Below, piece by piece: positions 19,601 through 41,840 of a stretch of 64,000 nucleotides of DNA. This stretch comes from Spinacia oleracea. Lineage: Eukaryota; Streptophyta; Magnoliopsida; Caryophyllales; Amaranthaceae. Within the stretch, counting starts at the first letter, position 1, and the number at the start of each line of letters is the position of its first letter. The position numbers were made by a program, and so were the translations under genes. The stretch covers positions 104,318,141 through 104,382,140 of the forward strand of contig NC_079487.1 of NCBI RefSeq assembly GCF_020520425.1, given 5' to 3'. A model generated the notes under the pieces. The model was not told where the DNA came from, searched no databases, and saw only the letters and a list, made by a program, of their open reading frames with translations.

Positions 19601-20495
19601 AGAAAGTTGCTAATCTTTCTTTGTTCAGGGGGAGAAAGATGACAAGATAATTGCTGTTTGTGCTGATGATCCCGAGTACCGTCATTACAATGACATCAAG
19701 GAGCTCCCACCACATCGTTTGGCTGAGATTCGTCGCTTCTTTGAAGATTGTATCCTTTACACATTTTTTTTTGTTTGTTCCCAAATCCCATAACAACAAG
19801 CGCATCCAAGTGTCACCAGTTCAATTCCTGCTCATTTTTCCAGTATCAATCTATATACTGTGCATTTTCAAGAATCTTGTACTTCAAATTATTTTTTCTT
19901 TGACAAATTTTTTCAGACAAGAAAAATGAGAACAAGGAAGTTGCAGTTGATGATTTTCTGCCGTCGACTAAGGCTCATGAGGCAATCCAACACTCCATGT
20001 ATGTTTTGTTCCTTACTATCCAAGATCTAATTAATTGTTATTTTTACTTTTATTTTCTGCTCAGTATCCATCTCTTAATTAAAGATTTAAAGTAGTTGTG
20101 TGTCGGAAAGTTTTAATGATAATATAGACTTGATATAAGTATGTGATTAAGATATACGAAGTACTTACTACCCCATTGGGATGTGATACTCAACAAGGAA
20201 AGGAGAGGTGTGTATGACCTCATGTCTTTTTGACATCCGTAAAATAAATTTGGGGTGTAACACCCAACAAGGGACGGAGGAAGTATGTTTTTAAGCTTTC
20301 ATGTGTCTTTTTCTGACTTCCAAAATTGCTAATCAAGACTAAGTTACTAGAGACTTGAACACATTCTGCTATATATTGGTCAAATATGTTACTACAATGC
20401 GGTATTTGCCATAGTCTAGAATGATCTCACATCTATGTTTTGTTTTGTGAAGGGATCTTTACGCAAACTACGTTGTGGAGACCTTGAGGCGGTAG
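16613..20495 (+). CDS. Soluble inorganic pyrophosphatase (family I)
   Basis: Hydrolyses pyrophosphate to two phosphates with Mg2+, pulling biosynthetic reactions forward. There is no transit peptide, so it probably acts in the cytosol. Eight coding exons follow the leader exon: 16613-16781, 16911-16939, 18727-18792, 18879-18986, 19493-19558, 19629-19749, 19917-19998 and 20453-20495. All introns are GT-AG and the exons join in phase to 684 bases, 227 aa plus a stop, the usual size for plant soluble PPases. The family signature DSDPMDV is at residues 113-119. YPHNYGFIP (99-107), VKYELDK (76-82) and EKDDK (148-152) supply the expected metal- and phosphate-binding residues. The N-terminus carries three TETK repeats (7-18) before the conserved core. 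The ATG chosen is the first after the leader intron. All key residues are present, so it should be functional. Which paralogue it is cannot be said. Confidence 0.95.
20164..20283. mobile_element. Small MITE-like element in the last pyrophosphatase intron
   Basis: About 120 bp with imperfect inverted ends (left cttactaccccattgggatg; right, other strand, cttcctccgtcccttgttgg) and TA on both sides. The inner inverted copies of 'caacaagg' support a foldback element. Decayed. Confidence 0.45.
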
Positions 20496-20903
20496 TATTC
20501 TTTGATCAAGTGGATATGGAAAAGTTTTGTATTATAAGCCCTCTGAAATTGAACAAAGTATTCAAACAGGTGTATAACCTCTTCTGTTGAAATCAAAATC
20601 CAGTGAAATGTAGAAACTTTGATGACATACTCTTATTCCATATGCTTCTTTGAGTTGAATTCTTACATGTTTGTAATAACAATCTCAAGCATTGTAATAG
20701 TCCACATGTGAATTGTCTTTCTTCTGTTTTTATCACCATTTTTTGTTCTTTTTTTCCCGTGTATTTCTATTATATCGTGTCAATAACAGGCAGCTTTTAT
20801 TCTCAATGTGCTTTGATTCATTGACGAAGATGAGTAGGAAAATGGGTTTGAATGGTGTGCATTTTCGCCTCCATTTTTAGGTAAATGAAGAGCAAAAGTA
20901 CTA
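20496..20903 (+). other. 3' UTR and downstream region of the pyrophosphatase gene
   Basis: Non-coding. T-rich stretches and ttgtaataac-type signals near 20670-20700 are plausible polyadenylation signals. The stop codon is about 400 bases from the transposon nest. Confidence 0.5.
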
Positions 20904-20935
20904 CTTTCTCCGTTTCGTAATAGATGCATCATTTC

Positions 20936-21724
20936 TGTTATAAATGAAGGACCTTTTAGGCTTGAATGTTGATTTGTATGACAATTTGATGTTTGAATAA
21001 TGAGAAGAAATAATTAAAGAAATTAAAACACACACAAAGATTTAAGGTGGTTCACTCTTCAATGAGCTACATCCACCATGAGGGAGGGTTTGGAGCTTGT
21101 ATTACTCTTCAATGGAGAAAGGATTACAAAGAGGAATTCTCAAAGGTGAAGAAGAGAGAATTCTTAGATCTAGGGTTTCAACCTCACTTGTGTTTCTCTC
21201 TCTTAATTCTTAAAATCTCATTACATTTGGTATTTATAGTGTTACACATCAAACTAATCTAAGGGACAAGAAAAGGCCACGTCGATTGAACCTTGCGGAG
21301 AAGAAAACAGTTTACCAGCAGAGTTCGGTCGAACCTTTAAAGGGTTCGGCCGAACCAAGGTCAGGTTCGGCCGAACTTACCCAAAGTTCGGGCAAACCTC
21401 CCAAAACAAAGCTACTGACTTCAGGTTCGGCCGAACCACCAAAGAGTTCGGCCGAACTTCCAGCAGGTTCGGCCGAACCTCCAGCAGATTCGGCCGAACT
21501 TCCCCTGCTGCATGACAGCTTCTCGTAAAACAGTCATAACTCCCTCATTTCTCATCCAAAATGAGATTATGACCAGGCGTTGGAAAGCTATTGTGCCAAG
21601 CTTTCACCTCCAACTTGAATCAACTCAATCTAATGAGTAGATCATGAAATATGTCCATTTGAAGTCAGACCTTCCACTATAACACCCTAACATCCTTCAA
21701 GGAAGATTCGAGGCACACATAACA
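20936..21724 (-). repeat. 3' LTR of the nested copia element (789 bp)
   Basis: On the plus strand it begins tgttataaatgaagg and ends cacacataaca; it matches 40444-41190 closely. It has a cluster of TTCGGCCGAAC palindromes (21320-21500) and is 42 bases longer than the other LTR because of extra palindrome units. The polypurine tract (minus strand aaggtggagaat) adjoins it at 21725-21736. Confidence 0.92.
21310..21510. repeat. TTCGGCCGAAC palindrome cluster in the copia LTR
   Basis: The 11-base palindrome-like unit ttcggccgaac and one-base variants (ttcggctgaac, ttcgggcgaac, ttcggtcgaac) occur about ten times with spacing near 21 bases. The same cluster with fewer units is in the other LTR at 40830-40965. 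Each unit is self-complementary. Confidence 0.8.
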
Positions 21725-21814
21725 ATTCTCCACCTTGACTTGAATCCTCCACACTTCCTCATAATGCAATACCAGACTATACTCCAAACACGCTCCCAAC
21801 AAGCCCTTATGGGC

Positions 21815-23791
21815 TTACATCGACCATGGAGAAAGACCAACTAAGTCCACACACAAAGTGAACTTAGTTGTCGGCAAAGGCTTTGTCAACATGTCGGCGG
21901 GATTCTCCTCGGTACCAATCTTCTTCAAGAGCAATTCTTTCTTAGCTATCACATCTCGAACGAAGTTGTACTTTATGTCAATGTGCTTGGTTCTCTTGTA
22001 GAATGTGTTTTGATTCTTAGCCAAATGTATGGCACTTTGACTATCACAAAACACGGACACCAAGCTTGAATATGGACTAAAATCTCCCACTAGACCCTTG
22101 AGCCACTTTGCTTCTTTGAATGCTTCGGTAATAGCCATAAACTCGGCCTCTGTAGTTGAAAGAGCTACAACATCTTGTAGCGTTGATTGCCAACTCACGG
22201 CCGTACCACCCAAAGTAAAGACATAGCCGGAAGTAGATTTTCGGTCATCCAAATCACCTCTATAATCCGAATCACAAAAGCCCTCAAGTCCGTTTGCATT
22301 TCTACCAAACTCAAGGCAAACGTTTGAGGTACCCTTCAAGTACCTCAACAACCACTTCACGGCTTCCCAATGGACCTTTCCCGGTCTTGACATATACCGA
22401 CTAACCATACTCACCGCATGAGCTATATCCGGTCTTGAACACACCATGGCATACATCACACTTCCAACCGCACTAGTGTATGGAATGTGAGTCATGGACT
22501 TTTCTTCTTCCTTGGATTGAGGACTAAGCTCCTTTGAGAGCTTAAAGTGAGAACTCAATGGAGTGGAAACGGGTTTTGCATGCACCATGGAGAAGCGCTC
22601 AAGCACCTTCTCAATGTATCTCTTTTGACTAAGATACAAAACACCCGCATTCCTATCACGAATAATCTCCATACCAAGAATCTTCTTGGCTTCACCAAGA
22701 TCTTTCATATCAAACTCACTTGCCAACAACTTTTTCAAGTTGTCAATCTCAATCATATTCTTGCAAGCCACCAACATATCATCTACATATAAGAGCAAGT
22801 AGATGAAGGAACCACTCACAAGTTCTTTGTAATAGACACAACTATCAAAAGAGATCCTTGTGAAATCATGTGCCAACATGAACGAATCAAATCGTTTATA
22901 CCATTGCCTTGGAGATTGCTTCAAGCCATACAAGGACTTTAAAAGATGACACACATGATTTTCCTTCCCTTTCTCCTCAAAACCTTCCGGTTGCTTCATG
23001 TAGATCTCCTCCTCCAAATCCCCATGGAGGAATGCGGTCTTCACATCAAGTTGGTGTAGCTCCAAGTCTTCCATAGCTACCAAGGCAAACAACACCCTTA
23101 TGGATGAGTGTTTCACAACCGGAGAAAATACTTAATGAAAGTCAACACCTTCAATTTGTGTGAAACCTCTTGCAACAACTCTTGCCTTGTAGACGGGACC
23201 ACCCGATTCCGGTGTACCTTCCTTCTTCTTGTACACCCACTTGCACCCAACAATTCTTTTGCCTTTCGGTGCAATGCATAAGCTCCAAGTATTGTTCTTG
23301 TGCAAGGACTCCATTTCTTGCTCCATGGCCATCAACCACTTGCCGGCATCATTTAGAGACATTGCTTCCTTGAATGAACAAGGATCATCATTATCGGTCT
23401 CCACTTGACTTGCAACGGAGAGAGCATATTGAACATAATCACACTCCTCAATGTATCTACTTGGAGGCTTGATTGGTCTCTTTGCTCTTTCTTCGGCAAT
23501 AGATTTCTTTTGAGCTTGTGGTGTCGCTTCACGAGGTCTCCTTGATGAGGGACCATCTTCATGTGAATGCTCATCTAGCTCCACCTCCTCCTCGGTATCA
23601 TGGTGTGAACCTACATCATTGCAAATAGAAAGCTCCTTTCCCGGAGTGATCATACAATTTTCATCAAAAACAATATCTCTAGAAGTTATGACTCTTCTAG
23701 ATTGGTTACACCATACTCTATAACCTTTAACTCCTAAACCATAGCCAACAAAAATACATTTTTTAGCTCTAGGTTCAAGTTTACCATCACT
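21815..23791 (-). pseudogene. pol C-terminal part: reverse transcriptase and RNase H
   Basis: Continues the integrase frame on the other side of the CACTA, starting SDGKLEPRAKKC. The integrase C-terminus and spacer run to about 23330. The reverse transcriptase has the YKARVVARGFTQIEGVDF block and then an in-frame TAA at 23132-23134, where the family normally has a glutamate codon. The frame continues with LDVKTAFLHGDLEEEIYM, the active-site block LLLYVDDMLVA, and the RNase H region (FCDSDYRGDLDDRKSTSGY, STTEAEFMA, FCDSQSAI). It ends with MLTKPLPTTKF. There is no frameshift anywhere; the stop and the insertion are the only breaks in this half. Confidence 0.9.
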
Positions 23792-23805
23792 CACTAGAGG
23801 AAAAA

Positions 23806-24155
23806 AGCTCAAGTGCGGGCTCATTTTAAGGGGTTAAGTGCGGGCTTTTACATGTGCAGCACATGGCGTGCTCGCACTTGATGTTTCTCAAGTGCTGCCA
23901 AAATATTGGCAGCACTTGATGCTTCAAGTGCTGCCAATTTACAAAATGAGCCCGCACTTGACAAAGTTGGTGCTGCCAATTTTGCAATATGAGCCCGCAC
24001 TTGACAAAGTTTGTGCTGCCAATTTTGGAAATTAGCCCGCACTTGACAAATTTGGTGCTGCCAATTTTGAAAATTAGCCCGCACTTGACATAAAAATGGG
24101 CAGCACAAACATAAAAAAAAGCCGCACTTGATATATAAATGAGCCGCACTTGATC
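23806..24155. repeat. Left subterminal repeats of the CACTA element
   Basis: About a dozen copies of the core cgcacttga / tcaagtgcg. Four occur in a regular array of 42-43 bases (gcccgcacttgacaaa followed by gtgctgccaatttt, cores at 23951, 23994, 24036 and 24078). Divergent and inverted copies lie nearer the tip. Confidence 0.85.
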
Positions 24156-25320
24156 TAGAAATTTGTTATATAACTAATATCCCCTGCTACATATATTATA
24201 AAATTAGACCACGTCCACTAGTTAACCTCCATACATCACATAAAAAAAGTATCCAATTATATAGATTATTAAATAAATAGTATATAATTGTAAATATAAA
24301 AATTGATTACATTACAATCATATGAAAAACTAACATCCATAATCTAAGATTTACTACAAGAAATATCAAAGACAATAAATAGTAATGAAGTTTGACAACT
24401 TTTCTCGAACTTCATTTATCTACTCAATGGTAAAAGGCTGTTCCCTCGGATTGTTGAATACCTAAAGAAGATCGACCATCAAGAAGAAAAAAAATATGTT
24501 AGTTATATTATGAATATTGTATGGTATAATAAAGTAAGACATAATTTGCTCACAACAATGAAATAATGAACCTTATAATAATAAAAATGGCTTATTTCTC
24601 TCCTACGTTCAACCAATGAACCTAAATAATTAAAACTATGTAAAATTAAAACTATTATTTCATGGGTTGATTTCAACAAAAAAAAAATGGTTTTGTTCCT
24701 TTTGTTATCCACTTATCTTCTCTTTGTACCACACTACCACACCACAAATTAAATGGTACACCCGATTGCATATAGAGCTACATGCAAATCAGAACACCAC
24801 ACAATCCCTTATCTTTTGGGGTTGGAATTTTTTTGTTGCAAAGGCAAACTGTCAAATTTACCGGTATTTGGTTAAAGGGTGTACATATATTGCATTCCAC
24901 ATTCCATACCAGAAAAAGAGTTTCATGTCACTCATCTTCATCACCATCAACCTCAACAAACCGAGACATGACCGCACATGAGTTTTAAAAAGTACACAAA
25001 ACATAAACAGCATGTTACAATGTAAATTTTGGTGAGATTATTTGTATGTACAAATCTTAAAACTTGTCTTTTGGCATTCTGAAAAATTTCCTGTTCATGT
25101 TAGTTAAGTTTATTTTTATTTTTTTCTGATGACCCACTGACTGACCTGGTTTGCAGAATTGCAGATAACCGATTCCATTCAGAAATTAGCAAGCAGCTGA
25201 ACAATACAGGTTCATTGCTGCAAAGAATCTGCATTCAATAAAACAAATTGTGTAAATATAGATTATACAGGGGAAAAACAGCAACAAGAAAACAATTTCA
25301 CTGTTTTTGCAAGAATTTAC
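24156..25320. other. CACTA interior, AT-rich, no gene seen
   Basis: Short open frames only. 25140-25260 has an exon-like GC level and could belong to the captured gene fragment beside it, but no frame is convincing. No transposase motif. Confidence 0.4.
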
Positions 25321-25579
25321 CTATTTCTTGTTTCTTGCCTCTTTTTTCCAATCTCTTCTTCCGGTTTTACTTATAATTTTCTGGCTACCATTCAGATTGC
25401 TTTCTGAAAGAACTTCACTTTTCAAAGTTTGTTCTGATTCCCGTGTTCCTGAAGGAATAGACTCTTCTGGTATGGCGGCATGGACTCTTCTTGCTTCCTT
25501 CTTCCAGTTGTGCCTACAATGAACACGAATTCCAGCTTGTTCCTCAATCTGCAGACAATATCCAGTACGATTCATATAC
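25321..25579 (-). pseudogene. Captured host-gene exon inside the CACTA (unrecognised)
   Basis: A minus-strand exon preceded by a cctctaag acceptor. It has an open frame of about 84 codons ending in TAG: MNRTGYCLQIEEQAGIRV, then HCRHNWKKEARRVH, and near the end RRDWKKEARNKK. WKKEAR occurs twice and the C-terminus is basic, like a nuclear localisation signal. A 5'-UTR-like exon on the same strand lies at 27083-27170, so the CACTA seems to carry part of a spliced host gene. I do not recognise the protein; no transposase family resembles it. Confidence 0.45.
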
Positions 25580-26309
25580 CTTAGAGGGTATCACTTTCAA
25601 CGTTCAAGCAATGTAATAATAGCAACAAACTAAGCCTGAAACCTGGAAAGCATGCAAAAGAAGAAAAAAATATTTAAGTCCAAACAAGAGAAGTTATGGT
25701 TTTCAGCTTAGAGAATATTTTGCAACAAACTGCGTGAATTCGGTCTTGTCAAGTAATCACAAAGAAAAAATCCAGTGTACAGTAATTAAAGTGAAACCAC
25801 TTTTATGCTTAAGAACCCACAGCCATATAAGAGGTAAGATTAGGGAAAGAAAACACATTATTAAGGAAGTGTACTTCAAGGAAGCACTGTGAAAATAAAA
25901 GGGTAAAGATAAAAGAATATCATGTAAACAGTAAACATAATGAGCTTTTTAGGTTAGCAGTTGATCACTCATCAATATTAGTATAGACGGGGTATAAAAT
26001 CTTTGCATAATACAGAGTACTATTAAGTCCATCAAGGTCTAATAGCAAATTGCAATAATACTCCTACTTTTGGACCTAATATGTTATTTATGTTTCTTTT
26101 TATCTTTTTCCTTACACTTTCAAATTGAGGCTAGACTGCAAATGATACACAAAGCAAGGTTCAGAATACTGACACCCAATCATAAACACACACACACAAA
26201 AACAAGATGGCATCAGAAAATGATACTCAATCTTGCACAATATCCTAAGAATTTAGTCCGAAGATTACAAAACAGGAGACTCCTTCAAAACAAATATTTC
26301 TAAATGGAA

Positions 26310-26480
26310 ATTCGATAAACTCACCGGGCCTACCACAAGCCCGTACATGAGAAGGGATTGACCACATATAAGTTTGACGGGGTTCCATCCTAAAATCAAT
26401 TGGTGATAGGTGGAGTAGCCCACCAATCTTATATGTAAGTCAATCTCTCTCTTATTTCTTCAATGTGGGATAATTAGTCT
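26310..26480. repeat. LTR-like fragment resembling a TRIM terminal repeat
   Basis: Contains gggttccatcctaaaatcaa, ggtggagtagcccacc, then 'cttatatgtaagtc' and 'caatgtgggataattag', a combination typical of short LTRs of plant TRIM-type elements. I see no partner copy or target duplication, so it may be a solo LTR or a fragment. Confidence 0.35.
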
Positions 26481-27082
26481 AATACTCACATGTGAATTAT
26501 AATCTTAACAAAATTTCATGCTAGAATTATGACAAGAATTTGAAACAGACAAACACCACATCCCAATTTCCTTCTGTTTAATTAGGGGTAAATGTTGCAA
26601 ACAAGATTCTTCACGAGGAGGGCGTAGTCCTCTCAACACCTACATTTATTGATCTGCAATATGCTAGAATCAACAAGGTATCTTCCATTATTAGAAGGCA
26701 TGTATCTTCCTTAACCAATAGACTATACACTTTCAACTCCGCAACCAGGCAGGACCCCAGCATAAATACTGCAGCAGCAATGCCCATCAGGGAATGCTGG
26801 TACCAATACTATGGTCCATATCTGACACCATATATAAATCTAAATCTAAATTTATTTACAGTAAACAGAAGCAAGAGCTAGAATTAATGACCTCAAGCTT
26901 CTTTGTTGAGCCTTAATATCTCTAAGGAATTGAATCTTAATGAAGTCAAAGAATAACATTCGAACACAGTGCATAATCAATTAAATCCTATCTAAAACAG
27001 GATCCATTCATAATCAAAACATCAATAATCACTACTAGCAGTTATAAACTAACAGATTCAAGGAACAGGAGAGAGATTTTTT

Positions 27083-27170
27083 ATTACCTGGAAAAAGCCA
27101 CCCGGTATTTTCTAGGGTTTGGAGAAACACAAATTGAAATTCGACTTTCCGAAATTCGCGACGGTGGGGA
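27083..27170 (-). pseudogene. 5'-UTR-like exon of the captured gene
   Basis: On the minus strand the sequence contains aaaccctagaaaataccggg, a typical plant leader motif, and ends in tttttccag followed by a gtaataaa donor at 27082. Continuation upstream (27599-27673, and beyond the gypsy at 38043-38200) is CT/GC-rich like a promoter-proximal leader. A TRIM and a gypsy element are both inserted in this leader. Confidence 0.4.
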
Positions 27171-27593
27171 TGTTACGGTCCATTGTAAGGTATGGGACTT
27201 AAGTCCCACATCGATCATATGGGTGGCTGATGTGGGGTTTATATAGGATCATGGGCTCTCCTCCCCTTGAGCTAGCTTTTGGGGATGGTTCTCCTGTGGT
27301 CCTGTATCAATGGTATCAGAGCCGACCACCGCTCCTAGCACCACATGTGACCGATGGAGGTGACGCCGGTGCTCGTCCGGGGCTAGGAACCTTCTCTCTT
27401 TGCCTAGCGCAAAGCCTGCCACATGAGGGCATGTGGCTGCGAAGAGGGGTGGTATGTTACGGTCCATTGTAAGGTATGGGACTTAAGTCCCACATCGATC
27501 ATATGGGTGGCTGATGTGGGGTTTATATAGGATCATGGGCTCTCCTCCCCTTGAGCTAGCTTTTGGGGATGGTTCTCCTGTGGTCCTGTATCA
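27171..27593 (+). mobile_element. TRIM retrotransposon (423 bp) with identical LTRs
   Basis: Two 139 bp LTRs (27171-27309 and 27455-27593), identical by eye, begin tgttacggtccattg and end ggtcctgtatca. The primer-binding site tggtatcagagc (27311-27322) follows the first and the polypurine tract gaagaggggtggta (27441-27454) precedes the second. The 5 bp target duplication gggga is at 27166-27170 and 27594-27598. The 145 bp between the LTRs is too short to code. It needs proteins from another element to move. Confidence 0.93.
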
Positions 27594-27673
27594 GGGGAGC
27601 AGCAGCGGCGACACGACGGTTGGGAGCGGCGACGCGGCGATAGGGGAGTGCGGTGTGTGCTGTGAGTGTTAGA

Positions 27674-30473
27674 TGTAATCCCCCGTAATTTTATTATGTT
27701 TTATTTATATATTTTAACGTATATTTAATATATTTAAATAAGAATTTATGAATTTTGAAAATAAATATATAATTAACGTATATTTATTTATTACATTTTA
27801 ATATTTTCAACGATTTACGAAATCGAAAATAAGTTTAGAATTTTAAGTTGAAAAGAATTTGAATTACGAAAATTGATTGAATTTAGAAAACGATCCTATT
27901 CAGTTTTGGATTCGAATCAGAAAAGCTAAATCCTAATTCTAGCCCACTTGGGAAAGCCCAACATGAAAACCCAAACCTCATAACCTCACCCAAACTGTTT
28001 CACGTAAAACAACTCAAGCCCTCCTCTCCCTTTTCTGTTTCACGTAACTCAAACCCTCATCCATCACACTGCAGTTTTCTCTCCTCCCTTCACGTCCGCC
28101 GCTTCTGCCAGCCGCCACAGCCACCGGCGACCCTAACGCCGGTAACCCCTTTCTTCTTCTTCGATCTCCTACTTCTCCGTTCTTCGTCCTTCTAATTTGC
28201 TTGCGTTCCCTTTTCCTTTCGTTTGTTCTCACCATTAACCCCCTCCTTGTGTTCGACTTTGCACAGCAGCACCACGAGCTTCGTGCCGCCGTCCACCACC
28301 TAGCGCAGTCACCCACGAACCTCGACCACCGCCGCACGGTAGTCCTCTTAATTTCCTTCTTTTTCGTTTTTAATTTTCTTGCTCTTCGTTCTTGATTCTT
28401 CGACCCTTATTAAACATGTCGTTCTCCACAGCCGTCGAGCCGCGCAACCAACCTCCGCAAGCTGCCGCCTTGCCGCCGCCGTGATCTGTCCGCCGGCCAA
28501 CCCTTCTCTCTCCCTCTTTCTTGGTTATTTCTTGAACTCTAAGCAATTGAATTAAGTATTTTAATTTAAATGTTATTAATCTAAGTTATAATTTAATTAA
28601 ATTGAATTTATGAATTTATGATTTAATTAGAATTTCAGAATTTTATATTATGTTTAAATAATATATTTAATTTTCAGATTATATAAATGCATTGAAATAA
28701 TGATTTTTAATTATTTAAAGCATGAATTTTAAGTTTTAAATCATGGTAGGATGATTGTGGATTATTAAATTTATTGTTTCGATGTTCTAAGAACGTAGAT
28801 TGGCCTTGGTGAAGTTTTTAAATAAGTTTACATTGCTGAAATTGAAAGTACGATGTTTGCAAAGAGTTTTCAACAAATTTCAATCTCTAATTCAATAATT
28901 GTTATGCTAGGAAAGCAAATATTCAAGTTTTGTTATTGGAGAAAAGTTCTAAATATGTTTAGGATGTAGTTAGAATGTGTTACTATAGCTGTGAACGATT
29001 AGAAGTTGATTTGGAATCCTTGTTGGTTGTTTTTAGGCGGAGAATTCTCTGTAGGCGACTTTTGAATTATTAAAGTGGTCTTGAAGTTTGTTTACACAAG
29101 GTACGTACATACCTGTGTGCTTGGAATGTGTGCTAATTGTTGAAACCATGTTGAATTTGTTGTTGAACTTGGCTATGTTGATATTATTGTTGAACTTGGT
29201 GATGTTGATATTATCGACGAACCTAGTCAGGTTGAAATTGCATGTTTAATACTGTTGGATGGACGTATTGAACCTATATTGCATTAAGAGAATTATAACA
29301 TGTTAGTATGGATGATTGATGCAAACATGTTTGATTGGGAACACTAGATTACTTTGTATATGTTGATTCAGATCAGTTGATTGTTGTTCCCTTTTTAGCT
29401 TTTCACTACTTTATGAGGGTCGAGGACCTTGTTTAGTAAGTTGAAACTTTATACCCATATACAGGGTTGATCATGGTTAAAGGAAAGGTTGGGTAAATTG
29501 GAATGAGTCTTGATTGATGCCTTTATGATCACGTACTTAATTCTAAGATAAAAACAGTTGTGAACGAATGTGGATTATATGCCTTATGTGATTGTTGAGT
29601 CATAACAGAGTCTCAATTTGTAAATCATGTAAAGTGAAACTGAGTAGCAATAGCTTTAGACTGTGCACGTCTAAAGTGACGGACAAACAGGAGTTGGGGT
29701 TCATGGTGGTAGCCCATGGCCTTTATCTCGGACCGGATTGATCACCGTGTCCTATTTTTATTCAAATGTTCCTCGATATCGCAGGTCTCTGAGGTTACGG
29801 AGTCGCGCCCGTACCTCGTTTTCCTTAGTGAAGGCTGTCGGACCGTCAACTCGGTCCATTGTCTATTTCAACTAAAATAATATTATTGCTAAAAGTTTAG
29901 CCTAGTCTAGTCTGGTCAAGTATGGTCGTCAAACTATCATGTTTTGTCTGCCTTTATTTGTGTTCATTAGTATCATGTTAGGGTTGTTCGTTTAATAGAA
30001 TCATGTTAGGATTATTATTGATTTAGTATGTAGTACTCAGCTTTGCTGATTACGTGCTTTTTCTTGTGCATGTTGATCATGGCTATGCCTTATTGATCCT
30101 GTGATGACCCAATCTTTGGTGAGCAGTCTCTAAGGATCAATAAGCATTATCCATCTGCAGGTTTGAAGATGTTGCATCATTGGGATCGGGAATAGAGAGC
30201 TTGTATTTAGTTTTGATTTGCTAAGTTGACTTGGGTTTGTTTAATTGGACTTTAAACTTGTCGTACTATTTATATTTCCTTATTTTCGTTGGTTGATTTT
30301 TGGGACTAAACCTGTAATCGATTATTTATAAACCTAAAGTTAGTTTTATGTTTTCCGCTGCAAAATTCTGAATAAGCCGTTACGTTTTCACACGGGCGAT
30401 AATGCCTTGATAATTGTCTACGTTTTATATTAAAAGGTTATTTTAGAAAAGAAAGAATTGTCGGGGCGTTACA
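27674..30473 (+). repeat. 5' LTR of the gypsy element (2800 bp)
   Basis: TG...CA termini, with the same length as the other copy. Short open frames on both strands (for example around 28014-28395) recur in both LTRs simply because the LTRs are near identical; I do not regard them as genes. Confidence 0.9.
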
Positions 30474-30799
30474 AAGTGGTATTTTAGAGCTATAGGTTTT
30501 ATTGATTTTTCGTGTCTACTTTTTAAATTTTTAGGCGCCTAAACTAGCTAGTTTCCTAAAACGAATTTCCTAGAATGGAGCTTCTATTTATTATATCATT
30601 AAAAAATGCGTACTTTTTTTTTGGGGGACCAACTTCATTTTATTTTGTTTGAAAGTATATTAACATTTCTTATTTAAGTTCGGAATTAACTTATTTATTC
30701 GAAACTTTTCGTTTATGTGAATTAAGTACGTTTTTCTTTATTTTCGAAATTAAATTAAATACATTCGAAAAAAATAAAATAAAAATCTTATTCCTTAAG

Positions 30800-30965
30800 T
30801 ATATTTATTCGTTTAATATTTATTCGTTTAATAAATATTTATTCGTTTAATAAATATTTATTCGTTTATTATTTATTTGTTTAATAAAAATTTCTTATTA
30901 TTTATTCGTTTAAAAAAATAAATAAAAAAATATTCGTTTATTATTTATTAGTTTAATAATTTTTT
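30800..30965 (+). repeat. TATTCGTTTAATAAA short repeats in the gypsy leader
   Basis: About ten degenerate copies of a 15-20 base unit (tatttattcgtttaataaa) just after the 5' LTR. Non-coding. Confidence 0.6.
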
Positions 30966-31974
30966 TTTTAATCGTTCTTGTTTTATTCTTTAAATTCTTC
31001 AATGTTTGACCTATTATGATTTATTATGAGAGATGGGTAATATAGGAAAGGGCATATAGGATAGAATTATATGTGCATTAGTAGTTAATTGCTAGCATAA
31101 GAAGTTAATTGCTATGTGCATGTGTTAAATGTTTAACTGTTGCATGTAAATGTGCATAGAAATTGTTTGATTCCACCAAACTTATTGTTTTATTGAATTC
31201 TGATTATGCTTTGGTTGGGAAATCGTTAGTAAGATCTTAAGTTGTTTGTTTCATGAATAAAACACTTCTTTCCAAGTACACCAACATAGGATCCTTTGAG
31301 AAGATCGACGAATACTGAGGATCTAGATTTCACTTCACAAATTTCCAAGGAAAGAACAGATAGACAAGATGCCTTAAACATTTGAAGTTGTAATAGTTAG
31401 TTTGTTCTTAAATGTTTTGGAGAATAAGTAGCAAAGCTACAACAGTTTAAAGTTAAAGCAATAGGAGTTTGAGTTATTCTTTATTCTTTTCAAGGATGTA
31501 TTAAACCTTTATAGAATTAGCAATAAAGTTAAATATTCGTTTCCAATACGAGAATTCCATAATTCGCTCAACAATAGTTTATGTTTATGTCATAGAACCT
31601 TTATTTTATTTTGGGACAAATATAGTGTTATGGTTTAGGAAGTGTTATCAACATTTTTTCTTTCGAGGAGTAAAAGTTAGATTATTGATAATCCAAATGA
31701 TCCAGAGTTTATTTTGGGCACGCGAATGGGAATATTATTACTTATTTGTGGTGATTGAATTTCCATTCATTGATTTTCAAATTGTGTGTCTTTGATGGAG
31801 ATAATTTTTTTCATGAATGAGTGACGAGGATTAATCTAATATTGTTGTACTTTCTTGAATAAGTGTTTGTTGAGGTGATCTCTATGATCAAATCAAATAT
31901 TTCCTCCGTAGGGAATGAACTATAAGTCATGTACCGAACCTAAGGTAGAGTCATAAATTTCAGGCCGCGTACTA

Positions 31975-32945
31975 GAATGGAAAACAACCACAGTGAGTTA
32001 GCTGCTGCTTTTCGCAAAAACTGACACAGGAAAGAACCGAGTGTCCTGATTCTGCTAGGGACATGTTTGAAAGGTTAGTCAAAGTTAAGTCACCATACTT
32101 CAAGGGGGAAACTGATTTTACTTTTTAGAGAAATAGGTTAGAGATTTTGAGAAATTGTTTGAGGCGTTGAACTGTCCTTAGAATATGAGAGTGTGTCAAG
32201 TTGTCATGTATTTGAAAGATGAAGCTGATTTATAGTGGAGAGAGAATAGAGTTAGGCTTAGCAATGCTGAGAGATTCAATTAGGATTCAATTGTTACTGC
32301 CTTAAGGGAAAGTTTTACCCTACCTTTTATGGGAAAGCAAAAAGTTTAGGAATTCATAAACCTTAGTATGGGGAGCATGACCATTGCCGATTACTATAGC
32401 AAATTTATAGCACTGTCGTGGTTTGCACCTGAGGTTGTAGCCACAGAGGAGCTAAAGGCTCTGAGGTTTAAGCAAGGTTTGAGTGAGGAGATCCAATTAG
32501 GATTAGGTGGGGAAACCTTTACATCTTTGGATATTGTGTATGGGAAAGCTACTCATATTTATGGTTTGCAGTCTAGAAGGGACAAGAAAAAATATTGTTC
32601 TTGGGGAGAAAAGAAAAGAGTTTAATGCTGAGGAAAACCAAGGGAATTTCAAGAGGAATATGAATGAAAATGGGAATGGGAATGGATATGGAAACTTTCA
32701 AGGAAGGAACAAACAGGGGCACAACAATAGGAACCAATCTGAAAGAGTGTATCACTGTAAGATGTGCAATAACAACCATCCTGGTAGGAATTGTAAGGGA
32801 GAATTAATGAACTGTAACTATTGTCAGAAAAAAAGGGCATAGGAAGTATGAGTGCTTTAATAAGCAGAAAAAGGAACAAAATGGTAATAAGAGTGGTAAC
32901 CAGGTGAAGTCGGGATTTAACCAGTCAAGAAATTAGAGTTCGAAG
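31975..32945 (+). pseudogene. gag of the gypsy element, decayed
   Basis: Islands in several frames match chromovirus gag. First comes a VKVKSPYFKGETDF block near 32080, then MTIADYYSKFIALS and EELKALRFKQGLS at 32377-32480. Two zinc-knuckle-like sites follow near 32755 and 32810. The first is CKMCNNNHPGRNC, one residue shorter than CX2CX4HX4C. The second is disrupted by an extra A in a run of A's at 32826-32834. Internal stops occur near 32125, 32234 and 32281. Confidence 0.75.
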
Positions 32946-33329
32946 CCTATAGGGTCGCAAAACAGCCAAGGAAACCTCCATAAGTCTGCTAATTAGAATA
33001 ACAACCATAACAAGGCCCCGGGTAAACTGTCTGTGATAAGTCGAAATGAAGTTGAACGACCTGTTGACTTAGTTTCTGTTACTTTTCTATTAACTCCGTG
33101 CTAGTTAGAAAGTTATTTGATTCAGGGAAAGCTTATTCTTTTGTTTCGTCATCTCTTATTAAGAGTCCGAAGTTAGTAGATTTTGAGGTGATGGATTTAC
33201 CCGTTAGTATTCCTACTGTTGTAACCATAAGGTGTACCAAATTGTTTCAGAACTTGCCTTGTGAACTATTTTTCGGTTGTGTGAGCTAGATGTGAGTTAA
33301 GAAGTCGGAATGAAGATCGAGGATGTTCC

Positions 33330-34880
33330 AATTGTGAATGAATTCATGGATGTGTTTCCTAGTGAGATTGCAGGTATGCCACTTGCTAAGAGCCGTTGAA
33401 TCCCCTATAGACTTAGTTCCTAGAATGACGCATATATCTAGAGCACCATATAGAATGACACCTCCTGAAATGAGCTAATTAAGACAAAGTTGCAAGAGTT
33501 GTTTGGTCAAGGAATATATTAGGCCTAGTGCATCACTGTGGGGAGCTCCTGTGTTGTTTGTTAAGGAGAAAGATAAGAGTACGGAATTATGCATCGATTT
33601 TAGGGAGCTAAACACCATCAAGAACAAGTATCCCTTGCCTAGGATAGATGACATATTAGACCAATTGAATTGGGCGAGTGTGTTCTCGAAGACTGATTTG
33701 GGTTTAAAGTACCACCGATTGAGAGTAGCTGATAAAAATATACTTAAGACCTCATTAGGATTCGTATTGTCATTAAGGGTTTAGAGTAACGTCTTTTGGG
33801 TTACCCATTGCACCTGCATTAACTATGGATTTGATGTATAAGATTTTCTACGAATTCCGAATTGATGATATCCCGATTTGTTCAAGGAATGAGAAAGAGC
33901 ATGACAAACACTTGAGAATTACTTGGAGACGCTTAAAAAAAATCTAGTTTTATTAAATGAAGTATACAAATCTTGAAGTCATATGTGTATAAGTGACACC
34001 GACAGAAAAGTGAAGGACTAAATTGATTGAGAGCTATGTTACGTAAGGGAATAAATTTAAGAGAAGATTTGAGTGGTCCAGGATCGTTAGAAATCATTTG
34101 TTGTCTTGAAAAGATGGTAATGTATGAATTGGTGAAAGTGCTAAGAGTTAATCCCAAGAGTTATACATCCATAAAAGGCGTAATGAGGATCACTAGAAAG
34201 AGAAAGCTGAGTAGAAGGAGTTTCTGTAGATCCTACTAAGAATCAAGTTGTGAGTGATTGACCTACTCCAAAGGAACGTGTCTGATATCTGAAGTTTCCT
34301 AGGCCTAGCTGACTATTATAGGGAGTTTGTGAAGACCTTTCGAACAAAGAAAAACCAATGACCAACTTGTTGAAAAAGGAATCGAAATTCAAGGGGAGTG
34401 AGAAATGTGAAGAAGCTTTCCAGATTTTAAAGGAATGTTTGACCTCCGCACCTGTCGTCGCGACAATTGAAACCTTATGAAATCAATTACCCTACCCATG
34501 ATCTAGAGTTAGTTGTTATTATGTTCACTTTGAATGATTTGGAAACATTATCTTTATGGGGCAACATTTGAGATCCTTACCATAAAAGTCTGAAATTTTG
34601 GCAATAAGGTCCAGTTGAATTTGGGACAACATTGAAAAAAAAGAGTAATACCTTCCACCCTGCAATTGATGGTCAGCCTGAGAGGACTAACCAAACTATG
34701 GAATATATATTCAGAGCCTGTGATATTGACTTTAAGGGTAGTTGAGAACCATCTAGATTCGATTGAATTTCTTGCAACAATAGTTACTATGTGAGCTTTA
34801 AAATGGCACCTATTGAGGAATTGTGTGGAAAAAAGTGTAGAAATCCCACTTGCTACGATTTTAGTGGAAATGTAGCGTTG
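33330..34880 (+). pseudogene. pol of the gypsy element: RT, RNase H start and integrase remnants
   Basis: The reverse transcriptase begins near 33500: [40 protein letters not shown]. After a frameshift at about 33780 a catalytic-type block IDDIPICSRNEKEHDKH follows. Near 34300 FLGLADYYREFVK marks the end of RT, then the start of RNase H. Most of RNase H and the integrase core are deleted. From 34640 an integrase C-terminal block (TFHPAIDGQPERTNQT, KMAPIEELCG) remains. Protease is only suggested near 33100. The element cannot make these proteins itself. Confidence 0.8.
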
Positions 34881-35242
34881 GGGACATAATTCGTTGAAAT
34901 AGAAATATCCAAAGTATTCCCTGAGATGAGTTACGAGGGCGTAACTCGTTTTCTTTAAAAGGGGTAGAATGCAATAGAAATTCGCGCTTTTTACATATTT
35001 GTATAACAAATTTTTTTGCATTTTATGCTTATTCTTAGCAACTTATACATGTGATGCAAGTAAATAGATTCTCCGCATAAGAAAATGTGTACGTGAATAT
35101 AACAAGTAACTCTTAGTCGGCAAAAGAGTGCACAAGAGTGGCACAAAGTACTTCTACAATAAGAATAAGTTGAAAAGTTTGGAAAGATATGTGAATTTTC
35201 GTGTCAAGTTTCGGGACGAAACTTCTTTTAAGAGGGGTAGAT

Positions 35243-38042
35243 TGTAATCCCCCGTAATTTTATTATATTTTATTTATATATTTTAACGTATATTTAATAT
35301 ATTTAAATATGAATTTATGAATTTTGAAAATAAATATATAATTAACGTATATTTATTTATTACATTTTAATATTTTCAACGATTTACGAAATCGAAAATA
35401 ATTTTAGAATTTTAAGTTGAAAAGAATTTGAATTACGAAAATTGGTTGAATTTAGAAAACGATCCTATTCAGTTTTGGATTCGAATCAGAAAAGCTAAAT
35501 CCTAATTCTAGCCCACTTGGGAAAGCCCAACATGAAAACCCAAACCTCATAACCTCACCCAAACTGTTTCACGTAAAACAACTCAAGCCCTCCTCTCCCT
35601 TTTCTGTTTCACGTAACTCAAACCCTCATCCATCACACTGCAGTTTTCTCTCCTCCCTTCACGTCCGCCGCTTCTGCCAGCCGCCACAGCCACCGGCGAC
35701 CCTAACACCGGTAACCCCTTTCTTCTTCTTTGATCTCCTACTTCTCCGTTCTTCGTCCTTCTAATTTTCTTGCGTTCCCTTTTCCTTTCGTTTGTTCTCA
35801 CCATTAACCCCCTCCTTGTGTTCGACTTTGCACAGCAGCACCACGAGCTTCGTTCCGCCGTCCACCACCTAGCGCAGTCACCCACGAACCTCGACCACCG
35901 CCGCACGGTAGTCCTCTTTATTTCCTTCTTTTTCGTTTTTAATTTTCTTGCTCTTCGTTCTTGATTCTTCGACCCTTATTAAACATGTCGTTCTCCACAG
36001 CCGTCGAGCCGCGCAACCAACCTCCGCAAGCTGCCGCCTTGCCGCCGCCGTGATCTGTCCGCCGGCCAACCCTTCTCTCTCCCTCTTTCTTGGTTATTTC
36101 TTGAACTCTAAGCAATTGAATTAAGTATTTTAATTTAAATGTTATTAATCTAAGTTATAATTTAATTAAATTGAATTTATGAATTTATGATTTAATTAGA
36201 ATTTCAGAATTTTATATTATGTTTAAATAATATATTTAATTTTCAGATTATATAAATGCATTGAAATAATGATTTTTAATTATTTAAAGCATGAATTTTA
36301 AGTTTTAAATCATGGTAGGATGATTGTGGATTATTAAATTTATTGTTTCGATGTTCTAAGAACGTAGATTGGCCTTGGTGAAGTTTTTAAATAAGTTTAC
36401 ATTGCTGAAATTGAAAGTACGATGTTTGCAAAGAGTTTTCAACAAATTTCAATCTCTAATTCAATAATTGTTATGCTAGGAAAGCAAATATTCAAGTTTT
36501 GTTATTGGAGAAAAGTTCTAAATATGTTTAGGATGTAGTTAGAATGTGTTACTATAGCTGTGAACGATTAGAAGTTGATTTGGAATCCTTGTTGGTTGTT
36601 TTTAGGCGGAGAATTCTCTGTAGGCGACTTTTGAATTATTAAAGTGGTCTTGAAGTTTGTTTACACAAGGTACGTACATACCTGTGTGCTTGGAATGTGT
36701 GCTAATTGTTGAAACCATGTTGAATTTGTTGTTGAACTTCGCTATGTTGATATTATTGTTGAACTTGGTGATGTTGATATTATCGACGAACCTAGTCAGG
36801 TTGAACTTGCATGTTTAATACTGTTGGATGGACGTATTGAACCTATATTGCATTAAGAGAATTATAACATGTTAGTATGGATTATTGATGCAAACATGTT
36901 TGATTGGGAACACTAGATTACTTTGTATATGTTGATTCAGATCAGTTGATTGTTGTTCCCTTTTTAGCTTTTCACTACTTTATGAGGGCCGAGGACCTTG
37001 CTTAGTAAGTTGAAACTTTATACCCATATACAGGGTTGATCATGGTTAAAGGAAAGGTTGGGTAAATTGGAATGAGTCTTGATTGATGCCTTTATGATCA
37101 CGTACTTAATTCTAAGATAAAAACAGTTGTGAACGAATGTGGATTATATGCCTTATGTGATTGTTGAGTCATAACAGAGTCTCAATTTGTAAATCATGTA
37201 AAGTGAAACTGAGTAGCAATAGCTTTAGACTGTGCACGTCTAAAGTGACGGACAAACAGGAGTTGGGGTTCATGGTGGTAGCCCATGGCCTTTATCTCGG
37301 ACCGGATTGATCACCGTGTCCTATTTTTATTCAAATGTTCCTCGATATCGCAGGTCTCTGAGGTTACGGAGTCGCGCCCGTACCTAGTCTTCCTTAGTGA
37401 AGGCTGTCGGACGGTCAACTCGGTCCATTGTCTATTTCAACTAAAATAATATTATTGCTAAAATTCTAGCCTAGTCTAGTCTGGTCAAGTATGGTCGTCA
37501 AACTATCATGTTTTGTCTGCCTTTATTTGTGTTCATTAGTATCATGTTAGGGTTGTTCGTTTAATAGAATCATGTTAGGATTATTATTGATTTAGTATGT
37601 AGTACTCAGCTTTGCTGATTACGTGCTTTTGCTTGTGCATGTTGATCATGGCTATGCCTTATTGATCCTGTGATGACCCAATCTTTGGTGAGCAGTCTCT
37701 AAGGATCAATAAGCATTGTCCATCTGCAGGTTTGAATATGTTGCATCATTGGGATCGGGAATAGAGAGCTTGTATTTAGTTTTGATTTGCTAAGTTGACT
37801 TGGGTTTGTTTAATTGGACTTTAAACTTGTCGTACTATTTATATTTCCTTATTTTCGTTGGTTGATTTTTGGGACTAAACCTGTAATCGATTATTTATAA
37901 ACCTAAAGTTAGTTTTATGTTTTCCGCTGCAAAATTCTGAATAAGCCGTTACGTTTTCACACGGGCGATAATGCCTTGATACTTCTCTACGTTTTATATT
38001 AAAAGGTTATTTTAGAAAAGAAAGAATTGTCGGGGTGTTACA
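35243..38042 (+). repeat. 3' LTR of the gypsy element (2800 bp)
   Basis: Near-perfect copy of 27674-30473. Differences noticed include substitutions near 35268, 35309, 36740, 37385 and 38036. Confidence 0.9.
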
Positions 38043-38204
38043 GTTGAGAGTGTTGATTTCGCGCCCAGAGAACCGGAGAGGGGAAGATCGAAGAAACCAG
38101 AGAGGGGAAGAGCAAAGAACCGGAAAATGAAGATATGTTTTAGGAAACCAGAGAAGCGGAAGGAGAGGACAAGCGGGAAATGAAATATTTTGTGCGGGTC
38201 ATTT

Positions 38205-38345
38205 GTAAAAGGAGTCCGCACTTGAAATTAAGTGCTGTTAATTTTTTAAAATTAGCCCGCACTTGTAAAACGTAATTTTTTTTTTTTATGTTCTCAAGTG
38301 CTGCCAATTACCTAAATGAGCCGCACTTGAAGAGAAGCACATGGC
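38205..38345. repeat. Right subterminal repeats of the CACTA element
   Basis: Four copies of the same core (tccgcacttgaaa, agcccgcacttgtaaa, tcaagtgctgcc, agccgcacttgaag) in mixed orientation. They match the left subterminal motif and confirm that the two ends belong together. Confidence 0.85.
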
Positions 38346-38361
38346 GATTTTTCTACTAGTG

Positions 38362-39600
38362 ACTAACATGAATATAAGCCGGACAACCAAACACTCTCAA
38401 ACTAGAATAATCAACGGGTTTTCCGTACCATACCTCAAGAGGTGACTTGAAGTCAAGAGCCGAGTGAGGAGAGCGATTCACCAAGTAACAAGCCGTTGAA
38501 ACGGCTTCCTCCCAAAAAGATTTCCCCAAATTTGCTTGTGAAAGCATACATCTAGCCCTCTCTAAGAGAGTTCTATTCATTCGCTCCGCAACCCCATTTT
38601 GTTGAGGTCTACCCGCACAAGTTCGATGCCGCACAATGCCATGCTTGAGACAATACTTCAAGAACTTCTTCTCTACAAACTCTAGACCATTATCGGTCCT
38701 CAAGGTTTTGATCTTTTTCTCGGTCTTCTTTTCAATCATGGTCTTCCAATCATGGAACACATCAAAGACATTATCTTTATGCTTTATAAAGAACACCCAA
38801 ACCTTCCTAGAGAAGTCATCAATTATAGTGAGCAAATAATTACAACCACCAATCGAAGGAACTCTAGAGGGTCCCCACAAATCCGAATGGATGTATTCAA
38901 GTATCCCTTTGGTGTTGTGTACGGCGGGTTTGAAGCTAACCCTCTTGTGTTTACCAAACACACAATGCTCACAAAAGCCAAGGCTTCCAAGCTTCAAGCT
39001 TCCAAAACAACCTTGCTTGCTAAGCTCCGACATACCATGCTCCCCCATATGGCCAAGTCTCAAATGCCATAACTTTGTTTCACTATCACTCATAGTACCC
39101 GTGGAAACATTTGCCGAGCCTACCATGGTGGATCCTTGCAATGAGTACAAGCTACCCACTTTGGCACCCTTCATCAACACAAGAGCACCTTTCACAACCT
39201 TCATTACTCCACCTTCCGCTATGCACTTACAACCGTTAGTGTCAAGAGTGCCAAGAGAGATCAAATTCTTCTTTGGCTCCGGAACATGACGAACTTTAGT
39301 TAAGGTTCTCACAATACCATCAAACATTTTGATGGCTACCGTCCCAATTCCAATCACCTTGCACGTTGCATTGTTTCCCATGGTGACATTACCTCCATAA
39401 TACTCCTCATAAGAGCTAAAGAGATCCTTGTTGGGGGTCATATGAAACGAGCAACCCGAATCCAAAATCCATTCATCCTTACCCTTGATTCTTCCATGAG
39501 TGGCAACCAATGCACCACTATCACTATCGGTATCAACATAGCTAGCCTCGGCGGTAGCATGAGGTTCTTTGCCCTTTACGGACTTACCATCACCTCCCGA
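38362..39600 (-). pseudogene. pol N-terminal part: protease and integrase, cut by the CACTA
   Basis: In frame with gag after its stop. From the first Met at 39510: protease motif DSGCSFHM (residues 17-24) and the integrase zinc-binding block HLRLGHMGEHG ... CEHCVFGKHKR. Integrase core acidic residues lie in IHSDLWGP, LRTDNG and the QQNGVAERMNR segment. The open frame ends a few codons after RVFGCPAYIHVS because the CACTA insertion (target duplication act) interrupts it. The C-terminal part of the same frame resumes at 23791. The residues needed by protease and integrase look intact, but the polyprotein is physically split. Confidence 0.9.
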
Positions 39601-40377
39601 TTATTTCTTTTGCCACTTCCAACATTCCGACTTAATGTGGCCTTTAATGTGACAATAATTGCAAGACTTGTTATGGTTAGGATTCGGTTTCTTTGACTTG
39701 GACCGACCCCTATTCTTTCCCCCATTGCCACCATTACTAGTAGAAGTCTTCTCATGATTTCTACCCCTCACAAACAAGCCATCATTGGAGTTATTTGATG
39801 ATTTAGAAATTAATTGATTATCAATTAAGTCCCTTTGGGTCAAAGCATCTCTAACATCATCAATACTCAAATCATCTCTACCATACAAGATAGTTTGACG
39901 AAAATGTTTATAGGATGGTGGTAATGAACATAACAAGTAAATTGCAAGATCCTCATCATCTAAAACAACATCAATATTTTGAAGATCCATAACAATCGAA
40001 AAGAACTCATCTAAATGAGACTTAAGAGAATTACCTTCCTCAAGCCGAAGATCATAGAGTCTACTCTTGAGTAGTAGACGATTGGTGACACTTTTAGCCA
40101 TATAAAGAACCTCCAACTTCGACCATAGATCATTCGCGGTTTCCTCCTTGGCAACTTCCCTCAATACTTCATTCGAGAGGCAAAGTTGTATAGCCGACAA
40201 AGCCTTCAAATCAATCTCCTCCCACTTCTCTTCCGTAATGGTAGTGGGTTTCTTATCCTTCCCTTCAAGAGCCTTGTGCACACCATTTTGTATCAAAATA
40301 GCTTTCATTTTCGATTGCCAAAGGCCAAAGTTAATTGACCTATCAAACTTCTCAATATCCAACTTCATTGTTGACAT
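39601..40377 (-). CDS. gag protein of the nested copia element
   Basis: 258 aa plus a TAA stop. It begins MSTMKLDIEKFDR and continues with the UBN2-type gag fold common to Tork/Tnt1 elements (SLPPSYKHFRQTI near residue 155). The zinc knuckle CNYCHIKGHIKSEC, a perfect CX2CX4HX4C, is at the C-terminus, preceded by a basic RGRSKSKKPNPN linker. The protein packages element RNA in virus-like particles. In related elements gag and pol form one frame. Here the downstream protease-integrase frame is exactly in register with gag, and only this TAA separates them. The first ATG after the leader is the start. Confidence 0.88.
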   Translation of the reverse strand: MSTMKLDIEKFDRSINFGLWQSKMKAILIQNGVHKALEGKDKKPTTITEEKWEEIDLKALSAIQLCLSNEVLREVAKEETANDLWSKLEVLYMAKSVTNRLLLKSRLYDLRLEEGNSLKSHLDEFFSIVMDLQNIDVVLDDEDLAIYLLCSLPPSYKHFRQTILYGRDDLSIDDVRDALTQRDLIDNQLISKSSNNSNDGLFVRGRNHEKTSTSNGGNGGKNRGRSKSKKPNPNHNKSCNYCHIKGHIKSECWKWQKK

Positions 40378-40428
40378 GAGTATTCAATACTCCCAAGAAA
40401 TCAAACAAACAACCCAAACACAACCTTA

Positions 40429-40441
40429 GCTCTTGATACCA
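40429..40441 (-). other. Primer-binding site of the nested copia element
   Basis: On the minus strand TGGTATCAAGAGC lies two bases inside the 5' LTR. It is complementary to the 3' end of plant initiator-Met tRNA, the usual primer for Ty1/copia elements. Confidence 0.8.
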
Positions 40442-40443
40442 AT

Positions 40444-41190
40444 TGTTATAAATGAAGGACCTTTTAGGCTTGAATGTTGATTTGTATGACAATTTGATGT
40501 TTGAATAATGAGAAGAAATAATTAAAGAAATTAAAACACACACAAAGATTTAAGGTGGTTCACTCTTCAATGAGCTACATCCACCATGGGGGAGGGTTTG
40601 GAGCTTGTATTACTCTTCAATGGAGAAAGGATTACAAAGAGGAATTCTCAAAGGTGAAGAAGAGAGAATTCTTAGATCTAGGGTTTCAACCTCACTTGTG
40701 TTTCTCTCTCTTAATTCTGAAAATCTCATTATATTTGGTATTTATAGTGTTAGACATCAAACTAATCTAAGGGACAAGAAAAGGCCACGTCGATTGAACC
40801 TTGTGGAGAAGAAAACAGTTTACCCGCATAGTTCGGTCGAACCTTTAAAGGGTTCGGCCGAACCAAGGTCAGGTTCGGCTGAACTTACCCAAACTTCGGG
40901 CGAACCTCCAAAAACAAAGCTACTGACTTCAGGTTCGGCTGAACCACCAAAGAGTTCGGCCGAACTTCCCCTGCTGCATGACAGCTTCTCGTAAAACAGT
41001 CATAACTCCCTCATTTCTCATCCAAAATGAGCTTATGACCAGGCGTTGGAAAGCTATTGAGCCAAGCTTTAACCTCCAACTTGAATCAACTCAATCTAAT
41101 GAGTAGATCATGAGATATGTCCATTTGAAGTCAGACCTTCCACTATAACACCCTAACATCCTTCAAGGAAGATTCGAGGCACACATAACA
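40444..41190 (-). repeat. 5' LTR of the nested copia element (747 bp)
   Basis: Matches 20936-21724 base by base apart from roughly sixteen substitutions and the 42 bp indel in the TTCGGCCGAAC cluster. It is followed inward, after two bases, by the primer-binding site at 40429-40441. Confidence 0.92.
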
Positions 41191-41840
41191 ATTTCTTTTT
41201 TCACGTATCCCAACATGATTCTTTGAACATTAATATCTCTAATTGCGTGTAAGTAAAAATTATAAAAAAAATTGATATTTGGAATCCTCACATTGATACG
41301 AATTTAACAAGATCTCAGTTGACTATGTTTGTTTTTACATAATGTGAAAGAATAGTTGTCAAAGTTAGTTAATGAATAGTGTTCAAAAGAGAAACGATGC
41401 ATCTATTGCGGAACGGAGGAAGTAGAATAGAGGCAATACCCAACACGCTCTAAGAATCGAAGTTGGGAAGAAGAAAATGCATGATTTTGAGGAAAAATTG
41501 TTACTTTGCACATTACAAGCTTAAACTTCTATTTTTGTAAATTACAACTTGAAAAATCACTTGACATTTGAAACTACAACCCCGGATCGAATTCCGGCAA
41601 ACCGGGACTTGAAATTATATTTGATTAGCCAAAAATCGGATTTCTCAGTACGTTAATACTTGTGATGAGTCAGATTGTAAATGTTCTTTACATGATGATC
41701 TTTGTCATTAGATCATTACATTGCTACGAAGTCGCTTAAGCGAATCTTTCAAATTAGCTGGTGGTATCATACAAAAAAAATATGTTGAAAATTCCTTTTT
41801 TTTTTTTTTTGTTACGCCCTAGCTAATACGTAGTGACTAA

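Follow-up and report, generated by a model that had tools for sequence, protein, structure and literature searches.

The DNA analysed here is a stretch of 64,000 nucleotides from spinach (Spinacia oleracea), C1:104318141-104382140, referred to below as the window. Immediately downstream of a gene for a soluble inorganic pyrophosphatase, five transposable elements are stacked inside one another. We consider this an ordinary plant transposon nest, formed by five successive insertions beside a pyrophosphatase gene with intact exons, with a probability of roughly 95%. The outermost layer is a Stowaway-type miniature inverted-repeat transposable element (MITE), followed inwards by a Ty1/copia element, a CACTA element and, within the CACTA element, a terminal-repeat retrotransposon in miniature (TRIM) and a Ty3/gypsy element. 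The initial annotation, made from the sequence alone, had described the same nest with the target duplications TA, ATTTC, ACT and GGGGA for the first four, and re-reading of the boundaries and duplications bore it out. Boundaries and duplications were determined by reading the sequence and by script. The genome searched comprised 894,210,420 bases in 242 contigs, and matches were met on six of them, C1-C6, of 115-189 Mb each. Every genome search scored its best 40 candidates only.

Layers and order of the nest

The MITE (20904..41422) lies between TA at 20902-20903 and TA at 41423-41424. Its halves, 20904-20935 and 41191-41422, make up 259 bases with ATTTC counted once. The element was assigned to Stowaway by its TA duplication, small size, many copies and ends CTTTCTCCGTTTCG and CTTCCTCCGTTCCG, which are inverted with three mismatches in the first 27 bases and are of the type CTCCCTCCGT, the consensus of Stowaway inverted ends. 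Joined over the copia element, the MITE was compared with 40 scored of 2017 candidates, one of them its own locus; all 39 others matched at 93-96% identity and ran continuously through the join. Among 11 aligned relatives, 10 carried a single ATTTC and one (L018) carried ATCTC.

The copia element (20936..41190, coding on the minus strand) has LTRs (long terminal repeats) at 20936-21724 and 40444-41190 and the duplication ATTTC at 20931-20935 and 41191-41195. The Pfam domains Retrotran_gag_2, gag_pre-integrs, rve and RVT_2 were found in copia order on the minus strand, in separate pieces of open reading frame (ORF). A copia-type gag, integrase before reverse transcriptase, LTRs of the form TG...CA, a primer site, a polypurine tract and a 5-bp duplication identify it as Ty1/copia; the primer site and purine tract were identified by eye, and the former has one extra A relative to the initiator methionine tRNA site. 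With in-frame stops at 39601-39603 and 23132-23134, the element is not expected to yield a full polyprotein. Joined over the CACTA element, copia matched at 40 of 40 scored places (130 candidates) with 96-100% identity. All four copies that were read had a single ACT at the CACTA site, and the reading frame was continuous across it in the 120-base joined flank (YIHVS-DGKLEP).

The CACTA element (23792..38361) interrupts the polyprotein frame of copia and is flanked by ACT at either end; around the later insertions it persists as 23792-27170, 27599-27673 and 38043-38361. It shows CACTA ends, a 3-bp duplication and sub-terminal repeats, although past CACTAG the two ends agree only partly. No transposase was found in it: ORF pieces reached at most 115 aa between 24100 and 27170 and at most 61 aa between 38043 and 38361, no ORF of at least 120 aa was listed within 23834-24099, and the Pfam scan covered one 89-aa piece only. 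The element would have been moved by the transposase of another element. In 10 of 10 aligned siblings (L025, L026, L028, L029 and L031-L036; the own-locus pieces L027 and L030 were excluded), TRIM and gypsy were absent at both sites. Identity of these siblings over the aligned pieces ranged from ~69% to 91%, one 19-base piece excluded, and the GC-rich repeat between the TRIM and gypsy sites was longer in all ten than in the window.

The TRIM (27171..27593, plus strand) is 423 bp long, with identical LTRs of 139 bp at 27171-27309 and 27455-27593 and the duplication GGGGA at 27166-27170 and 27594-27598. Its short LTRs, a primer site that presumably matches initiator methionine tRNA, the 5-bp duplication and the lack of coding room are those of a TRIM, and it would have moved with the proteins of other elements. 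The full 423 bases were matched at 10 other places (best 40 of 61 candidates), nine at 99-100% and one at 95%.

The gypsy element (27674..38042, plus strand) has LTRs of 2800 bp at 27674-30473 and 35243-38042 and an internal region (30474-35242) in which gag-pol is shattered. It is flanked by GTTAGA on the left and GTTGA on the right, and the initial annotation had regarded it as lacking a target duplication. After alignment of the CACTA siblings that view is no longer preferred, and GTTGA/GTTAGA with a one-base change is the better explanation: the two siblings closest to the window (L025, L033) read TGAGTGTTGAGA at this site (TGAGT-GTTGA-GA), whereas in the window TGAGTGTTAGA precedes the element and GTTGAGA follows it. 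The duplication is thus likely to be the 5-bp GTTGA, of which the left copy gained a base. A 3-bp duplication GTT followed by AGA as a remnant of the polypurine tract was also considered and set aside; it would require a variant donor and is the more complicated account.

Entry of the gypsy element without a regular target duplication, by recombination between two elements or by end joining, would account for the difference between its two flanks, and imperfect duplications that agree in 4 of 5 bases were likewise seen in a further two members of the family, GTTGT/GTTGC (L063/L062) and CCGGT/TCGGT (L073/L072). We nevertheless find such an entry improbable, as siblings L025 and L033 hold one GTTGA with the same neighbouring bases and a solo LTR of the family (L003/L068) has the perfect 5-bp duplication ATAAT. 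Both ends were read in three family copies, of which one had a perfect duplication and two had one mismatch. No usable flank pair was obtained from the C2:50.37 Mb copy (L065), whose LTR follows another element's purine tract, from L066, L069 and L071, which lack an LTR end, or from L070 and L075, which are inner LTR starts; L002, L004, L007 and L074 gave the left side only.

It is extremely improbable that the paired halves are separate insertions or an assembly misjoin, and nothing was found in favour of this. The window contains no N, four layers have matching duplications on both sides and the fifth nearly so, and every inner junction has relatives that are intact through it; a misjoin would not create such duplications together with intact relatives. 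Excision in silico and comparison with empty sites in the same genome found the joined MITE, the joined copia and the CACTA siblings uninterrupted. The order of insertion follows from the target duplications and the uninterrupted relatives and agrees with that of the initial annotation. The MITE would first have entered the 3' flank of the pyrophosphatase gene, copia then entered the MITE, and the gene-carrying CACTA element entered copia. TRIM and gypsy entered the CACTA element last, in either order.

The LTR divergence also backs this order. The copia LTRs differ at 16 of 747 sites and by one 42-bp gap (Kimura two-parameter distance, K2P, 0.0217), and the gypsy LTRs at 25 of 2800 sites (K2P 0.0090); the two differ with a Fisher p of 0.011. 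With the spinach rate of PMC6337768 (1.3e-8 substitutions per site per year), insertion is estimated at ~0.84 million years ago (0.47-1.34) for copia and ~0.35 million years ago (0.22-0.51) for gypsy. A peak at ~0.5-0.8 million years is reported in the same source. These dates would bracket the jump of the CACTA element, a type that has no clock of its own. The TRIM LTRs show no difference in 139 sites, too few for dating.

Several points weigh against the reading as a whole. The empty-site comparison covers the sites of the four inner insertions. Dating by LTRs presupposes a clock and the absence of gene conversion, and the lack of differences in the TRIM is compatible with any age up to ~1 million years. 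Copy figures from the scored candidates are not genome-wide counts. The left gypsy flank is GTTAGA and not GTTGA, so that it could also be read as a 3-bp duplication GTT with three extra bases, and among the ten siblings exact GTTGA occurs in two at this site, GTTGT in five and a short deletion in three. Finally, the place on C6 that shares the gene fragment carried by the CACTA element, described below, is not necessarily its true source.

Other short features were observed in the window. A stretch at 59229-59491 has perfect 34-base inverted ends and is 71% like the long half of the outermost MITE; further partial relatives occur at 48029, 54001, 55203 and 56594. Just past the nest, at 42319-42585, a short element with ends CACTACAAAAATTTG and CAATTTCTTGTAG resembles a CACTA-type MITE. 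Scanning the window for tRNAs under a bacterial setting gave no match.

The captured gene fragment and the gypsy family

The CACTA element carries a gene fragment of ~2.1 kb (24638..26708, minus strand), which contains the 3' part of an open frame and flanking non-coding DNA. It aligns in four pieces with C6:148666755-148669910, at 84-97% identity per 100 bases, gaps apart. Relative to the C6 place, 401 bases are missing from the fragment, including those in which an open frame of 153 aa (L045 3628-4089) begins, and the two aligned pieces next to this deletion share 7 bases. The 153-aa frame resembles a last coding exon, and the non-coding part of the cargo appears to consist of introns and downstream sequence. 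From its one open frame, the C6 place may be a working gene. A dispersed repeat at 26314-26510 is common to the C6 place and many other places, and therefore probably arrived with the captured gene. Outside this repeat, the cargo matched only C6 and its own locus among the 40 scored candidates. The right border of the cargo was set by the siblings, because 26706-26833 is present in two of them (L046, L047) and the stretch ahead of 27170 in six of six. The 89-aa cargo piece of the window had no Pfam match, and the C6 counterpart gave only sub-threshold matches to bZIP_1 and CcdA, so the captured gene was left unnamed. The open frame of the C6 copy contains a basic RLKNRERQRRYRERKR stretch, where the weak bZIP_1 match falls below the cut-off. 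Given 84-97% identity to C6 and 2% divergence of the copia LTRs, the fragment was probably captured before the CACTA element entered copia.

The gypsy element was classified by a Ty3-type reverse transcriptase with protease ahead of it. A stretch of 101 aa (33479-33781) matched the Ty3 reverse transcriptase 4ol8 (E 1.8e-13) and had no Pfam match; RVP_2 (33068-33286) was above the Pfam cut-off, and RVT_1 (33777-33944) and RT_RNaseH_2 (34322-34477) were below theirs. The start of the LTR may resemble the Tekay type. Five stretches were fetched for the internal region (L052-L056); in three of them it was complete or almost complete, at 99.1-99.3% identity, while L055 contained part of it and L054 none adjoining the LTR. 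The three copies share 357, 356 and 351, respectively, of the 362 stop triplets counted in all three plus-strand frames of the window element. Their longest plus-strand ORFs are 133, 112 and 142 aa, respectively, and that of the window element is 111 aa; a full polyprotein exceeds 1,000 aa. Two more distant relatives from related subfamilies (L057, L058) have longest ORFs of 271 and 284 aa and no full-length frame.

The breaks in the coding region probably predate the spread of the family, because separate insertions have the same breakage. Segmental duplication could account for some of the copies. The left flanks differ among the copies in the window, at C5:19.91 Mb and at C2:54.70 Mb, and the copy at C2:50.37 Mb has the polypurine tract of another element, not host DNA, ahead of its LTR (L065). 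The element most likely moves with the proteins of other elements. We lean towards the reading that gag-pol of this innermost family was wrecked before its spread, and that a lineage with dead coding regions may have been copied in trans over a long period in the history of spinach, with the remains of its genes still recognisable.

Two further features of the family were observed. The copies at C2:50.37 Mb (L065, L053) form an apparent tandem array with shared LTRs. The primer site in the internal region of the window element reads TGGTATTTTAGAGC; it begins TGGTATTTTAGA in L052 and L053 too, and it differs from the TGGTATCAGAGC of L055 and L056.

The pyrophosphatase gene

The soluble inorganic pyrophosphatase gene (16613..20495, plus strand) was spliced by script with GT..AG borders into eight coding exons encoding 227 aa (Pfam PF00719, E 1.5e-59). 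The exons, at 16613-16781, 16911-16939, 18727-18792, 18879-18986, 19493-19558, 19629-19749, 19917-19998 and 20453-20495, are intact. The last intron contains, within 20140-20290, GGGACGGAGGAAGTA, a Stowaway-like end. The stop codon is at 20493-20495, and the distance from it to the start of the MITE, previously put at about 400 bases, was measured as 408 bases. The genome search found multi-exon soluble pyrophosphatase loci at three other places (C2:106.56 Mb, C3:154.48 Mb and C6:145.65 Mb) and, besides these, five single weak matches. In Arabidopsis, five cytosolic soluble pyrophosphatases are reported to operate alongside the vacuolar enzyme (PMC7266078). With at least three further loci in spinach and these several enzymes in Arabidopsis, the label of an essential gene given by the initial annotation was rejected as stated.

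The 3' LTR of copia adjoins the MITE and contains a putative promoter (21233..21498, minus strand). It consists of TATAAA (21238-21233), which faces the pyrophosphatase gene from its 3' side, and, upstream of this TATA box, seven TTCGGYYGAA palindromes (21324-21498). Tandem palindromes of the GGTTCGGCCGAACC type occur in both copia LTRs (21324-21498 and 40832-40964), seven in the left (3') and five in the right, and these 12 are the only TTCGGYYGAA palindromes in the window. The 42-bp gap between the LTRs (21447-21488) falls inside the array. Any regulatory action of the array would be a guess.

Spread of heterochromatin or antisense read-out from the nest could alter how the pyrophosphatase gene is expressed or processed at its 3' end. 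The short distance to the MITE and the TATA box facing the gene would favour such an effect, but the coding exons are intact, paralogues are present, and TTTGTA/TGTAA motifs lie at 20670-20697, well ahead of the MITE. Motifs of this type mark plant 3' ends; AATAAA was not found in 20496-20935. An effect on the gene is unproven and appears rather unlikely. Should the gene be affected, antisense read-out from the copia 3' LTR would be the likeliest route, ahead of the gene losing its 3' end.

Comparison with known systems

Transposon nests of this kind occur frequently in plants, and this one is mechanistically nothing new. Its TRIM resembles other TRIM elements in its 139-bp LTRs, total length of 423 bp and 5-bp duplication. 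LARD, Dasheng and Morgane are non-autonomous LTR retrotransposons, and the gypsy element is like them in having long LTRs, no working polyprotein and several young copies; unlike them, it retains recognisable remnants of gag, protease, reverse transcriptase and RNase H. For chromosome 3B of bread wheat, 30,199 nested insertions with up to 8 layers are reported (PMC4290129). The spinach nest is similar in that several superfamilies are stacked by successive insertion, but it is smaller (20.5 kb and four levels deep) and lies beside a gene.

The CACTA element resembles the Pack-CACTA or Pack-TYPE transposons as outlined in PMC8903248, with CACTA ends, a 3-bp duplication, no transposase frame found and a gene-like fragment inside; a host gene fragment within the element and a second copy elsewhere (C6) are features of Pack-CACTA. 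Captured gene fragments are also reported in CACTA elements of Chenopodium (PMC8978399). In contrast to the Pack-CACTA systems outlined there, a single CACTA copy with the fragment was found among 40 scored candidates, and the fragment is ~2.1 kb long, apparently with introns. Literature searches, in which the locus name itself was not a query, returned no paper recognisable from its title or the start of its abstract as concerning this locus.

The nest tells little about the pyrophosphatase gene itself. It is a clean worked example in which the order of five insertions places DNA transposons and retrotransposons relative to one another, and the two LTR clocks that would bracket the jump of the CACTA element are part of its value. 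It also includes one CACTA element that carries a gene fragment, and one gypsy family whose copying probably took place in trans.

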